64,000 nucleotides of DNA from Chitinispirillaceae bacterium (GTDB lineage Bacteria; Fibrobacterota; Chitinivibrionia; Chitinivibrionales; Chitinispirillaceae): contig JAFGIN010000179.1 of assembly GCA_016929595.1 (NCBI GenBank), positions 1-64,000 on the forward strand. Reading direction: 5' to 3'. Position 1 is the stretch's first letter, and every line of letters begins with the position of its first letter. Of the stretch, positions 58,405-60,883 are shown one piece after another. Under the pieces are notes generated by a model. That model saw nothing but the letters and a program-made list of their open reading frames with translations. It was not told where the DNA came from and did not search any database. Made by a program: the position numbers and the translations under genes.

Positions 58405-58480
58405 ATAATGTAGTTCATGCGTAATCGGAATAAACATTAAAAACCTGACCTGCATTGATTGATATAACAGGGAGGTCTTT

Positions 58481-58705
58481 ATGGCAGATCTAATTTTGAA
58501 TGACCCGGAAAAGAGTAGCGAACTAGCATCAGAAAATGAACTGAATTACGAATTTGATCCCAACGACAGTGCGGCGGTAGAACGCATTCACGCGTTGCTG
58601 TCTCTTAGAAATAAACATCGCATTGAAAACAGCGAAAAATTGTTGGCAATTTTTTGTGATAAGACGATCGATCACAATAACGAACCTGAACAACCAACAA
58701 TCTAA
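58481..58705 (+). CDS. Small acidic protein, tandem paralogue 1
   Basis: A 74-residue protein, first of three tandem paralogues. Ribosome site GGGAGG. It shares with the next two the start MA-x-LILN/D-D/P-E, a central YEFDPND followed by AVERIHALLSLR, and a lysine/serine-rich stretch with a Cys (NSEKLLAIFCDKT). It lacks the C-terminal extension of the others. No signal peptide, membrane segment or known domain. The family is unknown to me. Confidence 0.75.
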   Translation: MADLILNDPEKSSELASENELNYEFDPNDSAAVERIHALLSLRNKHRIENSEKLLAIFCDKTIDHNNEPEQPTI

Positions 58706-58772
58706 CAAACTATCGTGCGTAAGTACACTAACAAATTTCTAGCACACTCTTAATAAAGTCTCAACATTCGTT

Positions 58773-58781
58773 TGGTATACT
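58773..58781 (+). promoter_or_regulatory. Extended -10 promoter, paralogue 2
   Basis: TGGTATACT (TG-n-TATACT) ends 29 bases before the ATG of the second paralogue. The third paralogue has TGGTATTCT at nearly the same distance. No clear -35 is needed by extended -10 promoters. Confidence 0.55.
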
Positions 58782-58810
58782 TAATATAGAACAATCAAAG
58801 GAGGTTCTAT

Positions 58811-59161
58811 ATGGCATTACTAATACTTAATGAAGACGAAGCATGTGCAGCAGGGAAAACTCCAGAAGCTGAAAAATTTTATGAATTCGATCCTAACGAT
58901 AGAACTGCTATCAATAGAATTCATACGATTCTGTCGCTTCGGAAAAAAAGCTCTGCTGAAAAAAGTGAAAAGGTTCTTGCAGAAGTATGCACAAAGAGCC
59001 TTGAACAGAGTTTTTCAAAAACTTCTCAAGTTCATGTCAGCAGCTGGTTTCAGACTATTTCCGGGTATATTCCGAAATTCAATACCATAAACGGAAATTA
59101 CCGTAAACCGAAAAAAATCTACTCTTCCGGCCATATCAATATTCGTTTCCCGAGTATCTGA
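58811..59161 (+). CDS. Small basic-tailed protein, tandem paralogue 2
   Basis: A 116-residue protein with the ribosome site AAAGGAGG. N-terminal half as in its neighbours: MALLILNEDE, YEFDPNDRTAINRIHTILSL, then KSEKVLAEVC. The C-terminal 50 residues are basic and aromatic (NTINGNYRKPKKIYSSGHIN) and have no counterpart in paralogue 1. Own promoter upstream. No known family recognised. Confidence 0.75.
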   Translation: MALLILNEDEACAAGKTPEAEKFYEFDPNDRTAINRIHTILSLRKKSSAEKSEKVLAEVCTKSLEQSFSKTSQVHVSSWFQTISGYIPKFNTINGNYRKPKKIYSSGHINIRFPSI

Positions 59162-59284
59162 TATCGGCCTTCTTTCTCCACTTTCCTCTATCTCTTCGCT
59201 CCTTTTAATTCTAACCTTACATTGTTCATTCAACATGTTTTAATACATTTCTAATTTCAAGCTAATAAGAACCGAACACCCATC

Positions 59285-59293
59285 TGGTATTCT
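59285..59293 (+). promoter_or_regulatory. Extended -10 promoter, paralogue 3
   Basis: TGGTATTCT (TG-n-TATTCT) ends 31 bases before the ATG at 59325, matching the arrangement before paralogue 2. Confidence 0.55.
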
Positions 59294-59324
59294 TTGTAAC
59301 AGGATGTAATTGAAGGAGGTTCTT

Positions 59325-59687
59325 ATGGCATACCTTATTTTAGATGATGATGAATCATATTCGGGCAAAAAAAATGACTGGGAAAATTTCTTTGAGTTTG
59401 ACTCAAATGACACTAGTGCTGTTCGTAGAATCCATCGGATTCTATCGTTGCGTAAGAGATCTGTTTTTGCTGACAGTGTGAATAATCTTTCTGACATATG
59501 CGAATCAACGATGGAAAATAGTAATAATGACAAAAAAAACACTACCATGTCCGGATTATTTGAACGCACAGTAAAATATTTCTCTAATGTCAGAAATTCC
59601 GCAAAAACAAGGAGAAATTACCCGAAGAAACAGAATTTGAATCAATGCCACTTCTGTAAAGTAAAGTTCCATACCTTTAAAGCATGA
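59325..59687 (+). CDS. Small protein with Cys-rich tail, tandem paralogue 3
   Basis: A 120-residue protein starting at ATG 59325, five bases after AAGGAGG; a longer frame from 59310 would run through that site. Shared core: MAYLILDDDE, FFEFDSNDTSAVRRIHRILS, LRKRS. The tail is basic (RTRRNYPKK-like stretch, here KTRRNYPKKQ) and ends with one CxxC pair (NQCHFCKVKFH). No known family recognised. Confidence 0.75.
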   Translation: MAYLILDDDESYSGKKNDWENFFEFDSNDTSAVRRIHRILSLRKRSVFADSVNNLSDICESTMENSNNDKKNTTMSGLFERTVKYFSNVRNSAKTRRNYPKKQNLNQCHFCKVKFHTFKA

Positions 59688-60260
59688 ACCCTTGTTACCT
59701 TAGCTATACTGGAGGAATGATGAGCTGTTATTAACTGTCTCATATTACCTGCTTTCGGCGAGCAACTCGTATGTGACATGACACTATCGGACTGCGAATC
59801 CGTCAACGCACTGATTTTCATTTCGGAGCCGGGATCGCAATCGGTATCGACATCAAAAAGCATAGCAATTGCAAATCGATCCCGATTCCAATACCGACAG
59901 CGACCCCGATAATTACTATCGAAAAATATGCGGATATTACAAGTCTTTAGCTTTTGTTAAATTAACTGGCTTTTTTACTTGCAGGAATCAGCAATTATAT
60001 GAATCCCTTCATCATACGCTTTTTTGAGAACTTCATCAACGCTGATAGATCCTACCCGTATGCCATATCTGAATAAACAAAAAAAGGTGATGATAAAATC
60101 CTGGGGAAGCGAAGCCGTCCATGCTGTGTTTTAGAAAAATATGACTGCAATTTTGAAACGAAATCACGATCTGCAGTTTTATCGACGGAAGTAATTATTT
60201 TGTATTATGTAAAACAATTGAAAGAACGACACTTTTTATGCACTCTTATATGTTGGTGGT
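59688..60260. other. Gene-poor stretch with hairpin repeat and decayed frame
   Basis: About 570 bases. Contains an imperfect inverted repeat built on GATCG/ATCGG units: 59830-59854 against 59884-59908, about 30 bases apart. Also contains a decayed minus-strand reading frame (see the pseudogene entry). No intact gene is supported. Confidence 0.5.
59966..60204 (-). pseudogene. Possible decayed gene fragment
   Basis: On the minus strand one frame reads ITSVDKTADRDFVSKLQSYF before losing sense, and a second frame, shifted, reads GIRVGSISVDEVLKKAYDEG and ends at a TAA near 59966. The two halves look protein-like but are broken by a shift and have no start with a ribosome site. The parent family is not recognised. 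Could also be chance; confidence is low. Confidence 0.35.
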
Positions 60261-60452
60261 TCACTTCTGTGTAAACTTTTTCCACATGAATTTGATACCC
60301 ATATGGATAGTCAAAGGGATAGCAAAGACCAGATTGAATAACAACTCTTTTGCCAGATCATACTTTCCCTCTTTACCTTTGTTTCCGGTGGCGGAGATAT
60401 TCTTGTCACTACTACTTTTGTCGCTGCCGCTATCACACCGTTTCGCATCCAC
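60261..60452 (-). CDS. Small single-helix membrane protein
   Basis: A 63-residue protein with a Ser/Asp/Lys-rich start (MDAKRCDSGSDKSSSDKN) and one hydrophobic helix near residues 37-52 (ELLFNLVFAIPLTIHMGI). The GTG start has AAGGAG eight bases upstream. It follows the small lipoprotein gene by 35 bases on the same strand. No family recognised; the overlapping plus-strand frame has no ribosome site. Confidence 0.55.
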   Translation of the reverse strand: MDAKRCDSGSDKSSSDKNISATGNKGKEGKYDLAKELLFNLVFAIPLTIHMGIKFMWKKFTQK

Positions 60453-60487: not shown

Positions 60488-60883
60488 CTATCCATCTTCA
60501 CGCTCAAGTATCCGGATATATCTGGCCATTAACGTATCCGAAACCGATTGCAACTGCCAGTATGCTTTATAGGTAATTGTCTTCCCACTCATAACATTGA
60601 CTAATTTCTCATCGATTTTCCATTCCCCAGGCATATTGATGAATGTCCTGCTGCTGTCTTCTGCGCTGCACAGGAACAGCTCACGATTTGACACCCTTAC
60701 AAAAGATCCCGAATTGTTTCGTATCTGGACAGAACCGATAACCTTACCCTCAGATTTATGGTATGTTAAATTGAATATGGTAATGGTCACCCCTTCAAAT
60801 GGGGACAGTTCAATAGGATCGTATTTTGAACAGACCACCAGGGCAATTATCGCAACCACCAGAATCTGTTTCCACATAGTCAT
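60488..60883 (-). CDS. Small lipoprotein, unknown function
   Basis: A 131-residue protein. The N-terminal helix (MWKQILVVAIIALVVC) ends in a lipobox-like LVVC, followed by SKYDPIELSPFEG. The mature part is beta-rich (VTITIFNLTYHK, VIGSVQIRNNSGSFVRVSN), suggesting a small beta-sandwich. It diverges from cysK. No family recognised. Confidence 0.65.
   Translation of the reverse strand: MTMWKQILVVAIIALVVCSKYDPIELSPFEGVTITIFNLTYHKSEGKVIGSVQIRNNSGSFVRVSNRELFLCSAEDSSRTFINMPGEWKIDEKLVNVMSGKTITYKAYWQLQSVSDTLMARYIRILEREDG

Follow-up and report, generated by a model that had tools for sequence, protein, structure and literature searches.

Three tandem paralogues of an apparently new small-protein family in a Chitinispirillaceae genome

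Three adjacent genes of a Chitinispirillaceae bacterium encode small proteins that share their N-terminal half and belong to a genuine and apparently new family, of the common type of lineage-restricted small proteins. They lie in a contig stretch of 64,000 nucleotides, called here the window. An earlier note, made from the sequence of the window, had described them as plus-strand paralogues of 74, 116, and 120 residues with a common N-terminal half, and their alignment confirms this description.

58481..58705, plus strand: gene 1, 74 residues; core only, without a basic tail; core net charge -7
58811..59161, plus strand: gene 2, 116 residues; core followed by a basic and aromatic tail (+6)
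59325..59687, plus strand: gene 3, 120 residues; core followed by a basic tail (+10), with CHFC close to the C-terminus

The length of gene 3 is counted from the ATG that has a ribosome site, the mechanical open reading frame (ORF) beginning at a TTG five codons upstream. The intergenic gaps are of 105 nt (genes 1 and 2) and 163 nt (genes 2 and 3), and the leaders are separate.

Shared core and charged tails

The core common to the three proteins spans the N-terminal ∼65 residues, with 39%–46% identity between pairs. In the three-sequence alignment it has 23 invariant columns, including the motifs MA-LIL, EFD-ND, and RIH--LSLR, and single E, A, S, L, and C residues. The cysteine of predicted helix 2 is present in five of six family members. 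Comparisons among the three genes give 47–53 differences at codon position 3 versus 25–32 at position 2, and dN is ∼0.6 whereas dS is either above 2 or incalculable, i.e., silent sites are saturated. Because of this excess at position 3 and of the contrast between dN and dS, the likeness of the genes is neither due to chance nor recent: they are coding, constrained at the protein level, and of old divergence. Hence, the suggestion that the expansion was recent does not hold. In the phylogenetic tree, genes 1, 2, and 3 and the copy of genome G006 form an open fork, which neither supports nor refutes an expansion inside the genus.

The core and the tail have opposite charges. Net charge ranges from -1 to -8 in the cores and from +5 to +10 in the tails of all four tailed members, and tail-less copies of the family exist alongside the tailed ones. 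The view of a conserved core with variable basic tails thus stands, as does the statement that the family is unrecognised, since it matches no described one. That the tails differ is right in part: gene 1 has none and gene 3 alone has a CxxC (CxC motifs are present in the G017 relative), but the tails are alike in charge, with no significant sequence homology between them. Putative tail remnants, sought past the gene 1 stop codon and in the G006 copy by reading its other frames, were no better than shuffles, with the sole exception of 1 of 12 G006 comparisons (p = 0.036), and were rejected.

Two AlphaFold2 models, built with different query proteins from input alignments of six or seven sequences, agree in the order of elements: strand, strand, helix, helix, helix, and then mostly disorder. 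The mean pLDDT is 64.5 in the first model and 56.5 in the second; cores are mostly at 65–83 and 44–79, respectively, and C-terminal parts fall below 50. Foldseek found nothing significant for these models, whose weakness limits a fold search. The structure prediction proposed in the earlier note therefore yields the same strand and helix order twice and no structural neighbour. The N-terminus (MA-LIL followed by acidic residues) is predicted to be a short strand, and by inspection it does not have the hydrophobic look of a signal peptide. The idea of a secreted small protein accordingly finds no positive support.

Occurrence among genomes

The genome (6.6 Mb in 224 contigs, the window being on contig C34) contains no family copies other than genes 1 to 3. 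A search of 168 genomes from across the phylum found certain relatives in the window's own family alone, in 4 of 24 genomes belonging to four genera; the other 20 genomes of Chitinispirillaceae lack the family. The relatives are one copy in G006 (67 residues), one in G017 (116 residues), and three in G003. The profile search and copy count thus give three copies in this genome and relatives in three other genera. Other phyla were covered by two pattern scans of the genomes of GTDB 220. The first found none, and the second recovered two known relatives (Chitinispirillaceae bacterium Zod_Metabat.1421 and 'Fibrobacter sp.' AS22ysBPME_152) and nothing else; as these two scans are the whole coverage there, distant relatives may exist outside the phylum. 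A search for a ribosome site followed by the MAYLI pattern returned the known copies only. Weak matches to the core profile (E between 0.001 and 1, in Fibrobacter and others), of which a dozen were read, were taken as chance. One that recurs is part of a ∼500-residue protein resembling cysteinyl-tRNA synthetase, and others fall within long or antisense frames.

No family in Pfam, NCBIfam (searched with the three window proteins), PHROGs, PADLOC, or PDB matches at a credible E-value. The best scores are E = 0.0089 (phrog_17555), 0.013 (PADLOC C3a205), and 0.039 (Tea_helical), each for one member, and those with a curated cut-off score below it. Phage, viral, and plasmid collections gave nothing credible, one phage match (34% coverage, E = 0.7) being at chance level. 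In the portions of the literature available to us, no work on Chitinispirillaceae evidently concerns such proteins, and no paper was found for Fibrobacterota and small proteins.

The three copies of G003 are likely to be decaying. One has ATA at the expected ATG, with an intact AGGAGG upstream and an in-frame ATG further upstream; another has a stop after 25 codons; and the third follows the family pattern for ∼45 residues only, with a possible continuation in a different frame, as after a frameshift. Decay is likely because there are three separate lesions, though draft and metagenome-assembled genomes may carry single-base errors. Two other ORFs were observed at one G003 locus (L016). That at 1916–1992, close downstream of a family copy, has a GGAG ribosome site and encodes a peptide rich in aspartate, in which MIREWNREE is followed mostly by D. 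That at 516–1151, upstream of a family copy, encodes a protein with a PEP-CTERM-like C-terminus (VPESSSMALFGMGIVGFAGVFLIRKKQ).

Translation signals and upstream sequences

The following elements were identified in the leaders of the three genes.

58467..58480, plus strand: ribosome site of gene 1, 6-base anti-16S match GGAGGT
58728..58747, plus strand: upstream element CTAACAAATTTCTAGCACAC
58772..58782, plus strand: extended -10-like sequence of gene 2, TTGGTATACTT, read by eye
58784..58812, plus strand: leader hairpin of gene 2, ATATAGAAC/GTTCTATAT; the loop contains the ribosome site and the stem includes part of the start codon
58796..58810, plus strand: ribosome site of gene 2, 8-base anti-16S match AAGGAGGT
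59311..59324, plus strand: ribosome site of gene 3, 8-base anti-16S match AAGGAGGT

The very strong ribosome sites that had been pointed out are real, with matches of eight bases for genes 2 and 3 and six for gene 1. A match of eight bases is reached by only 1 of the 39 long ORFs of the window, and the longest one in a ribosomal-protein region of the same genome is of six (26 ORFs, some with uncertain starts). Codon bias in the three genes (0.64, 0.70, and 0.68, versus a window mean of 0.67) is mildly ribosomal-like at most, and for this reason high expression is left unestablished.

The leader hairpin, the upstream element, and the -10-like sequences are suggestive, and only that, of control signals. 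The hairpin of gene 2 has a z-score of -3.65 and was not found in the other four leaders tested (z = -1.8 in G006). G006 and two G003 copies have, at about -83 relative to the start, a sequence similar to the upstream element, which hints at an element common to these and gene 2. Its motif score is 81.7, versus 74.2 ± 2.6 for shuffles, a difference inflated by the relatedness of the copies; pairwise tests give p-values of 0.02–0.04 at best, and a genome-wide scan revealed no regulon (4 matches versus 11 for the reversed control). Sequences comparable to the -10-like one can be read by eye upstream of gene 3 (TGGTATTCT) and of gene 1 (TGTTATAAT), and a consensus promoter scan found promoter-like sites not to be in excess.

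About 140 bp 3′ of gene 3, at 59828–59904, there is a CGATNC-periodic cluster in both orientations. With up to three mismatches allowed, the pattern CCGATNCCGATNCCGAC occurs 11 times in the window versus 0.72 expected, and the cluster is possibly a repeat element of the lineage.

Loci and neighbours

On one side of the trio are the genes for SSB and an M20 amidohydrolase. On the other are two small minus-strand ORFs, a cysteine-synthase-like gene, and a Cys/Met-metabolism enzyme, past which are fatty-acid synthesis and RNase III genes; on the far side are GGDEF, DNA polymerase III delta, protease, amidase, and other genes. The two small ORFs (60488–60883 and 60261–60452), which separate gene 3 from the cysteine-synthase-like gene, have no Pfam match. 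Elsewhere the neighbours are flagellar genes (G006), pho/pst genes (G017), and unrelated genes (G003). Each genome has the family at a different site, without any recurring partner gene. Synteny with hipO was considered and discarded, as it is not kept among relatives: the hipO loci of 17 of them contain no recognisable family copy. The ORFs scanned reach from ∼43 kb (window position) to ∼78 kb (contig position), and none of them was recognised as a phage, transposase, RiPP, or toxin-antitoxin gene.

Possible functions

Lineage-restricted (ORFan) families of bacterial small proteins are short, patchily distributed, free-standing, gained and lost, and without domain match. The family described here resembles them in all these respects, and differs from the class in its tandem trio, its acidic core and basic tail, and its unusually strong ribosome sites. 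Tentatively, it may be a lineage-restricted, non-essential family of cytosolic proteins with fast turnover, in which the core binds itself or a partner and nucleic acid or membrane is the target of the cationic tail. The copies would each stand alone as genes, with a strong ribosome site and probably a promoter of their own. From the predicted models, the two strands and the helices would fold compactly into a protein-binding module that is probably a dimer, the tail with the third helix would touch nucleic acid or membrane, and the tail-less product of gene 1 could pair with the tailed products and tune them. The family would therefore act as an accessory regulator or adaptor, and regulators, one of the classes named in the earlier note, may be the right one. 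Speaking for this are the coding constraint, the same core in four genera, the charge split, the two agreeing models, an anti-16S match in genes 2 and 3 that exceeds that of every gene of the ribosomal region, neighbours that differ by genome, the lack of a copy upstream of hipO in relatives, and the damage in G003. Against it are the weak models, because of which dimerisation and tail function are guesses, the lack of a structural neighbour, the many possible roles of basic tails, and the mild codon bias. Some other accessory role, e.g., as a structural or envelope-associated small protein, a stress protein, or an inhibitor of a host enzyme, is a serious possibility, short of an even chance, and would fit the strong ribosome sites, the helix 2 cysteine, and the predicted third helix. 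A more elaborate regulatory module confined to Chitinispirillaceae is very unlikely. In it, the acidic tail-less paralogue would control cationic-tailed ones acting on nucleic acid or membrane, and the gene 2 ribosome-site hairpin and the shared upstream element would provide autoregulation through the leader.

The damage to all three G003 copies, together with the absence of the family from most of the Chitinispirillaceae genomes, would also be expected of orphan genes that are nearly neutral and decay fast, left over from a lost mobile element and with little present function. This is rather unlikely given the protein-level constraint among the window copies and between genera, the ribosome sites that have been kept, and the lack of transposase neighbours and of phage or plasmid relatives. 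Patchy distribution, tandem and decaying copies, and acidic beside basic versions can also be read as a toxin-antitoxin system or another addiction or defence element, with the acidic gene 1 product neutralising the basic-tailed copies. Type II systems likewise have small neighbouring genes of opposite charge, but here genes 1 to 3 are all paralogues, G006 and G017 have singletons with no evident small partner, and a conserved two-gene operon with a partner is seen at none of the window, G006, G017, and G003 loci. Since the gaps and separate leaders of the trio make no tight operon and the best PADLOC match concerns one member, the toxin/antitoxin-like character first proposed finds no backing and is distinctly unlikely. 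RiPP-like precursors, with a conserved N-terminal leader and a variable C-terminal core peptide, are highly improbable. In general layout, the Nif11- and NHLP-leader families share with the trio a conserved N-terminal and a variable C-terminal part and tandem copies, and strong ribosome sites would suit such precursors. Unlike them, the present family has tail-less members, has no GG cleavage motif where core meets tail, and lacks maturation genes (radical SAM, YcaO, or lanthipeptide-type) among the ORFs scanned around the trio; none are evident near the G006 and G017 copies either, and distant enzymes elsewhere in the genome are conceivable.

In conclusion, the trio by itself answers no known open question. 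It adds a well-supported and apparently undescribed protein family, whose alignment can serve for its annotation, to a poorly studied and mostly uncultured family of bacteria, and it is a case of a small gene being duplicated, truncated, and left to decay inside a single bacterial family.
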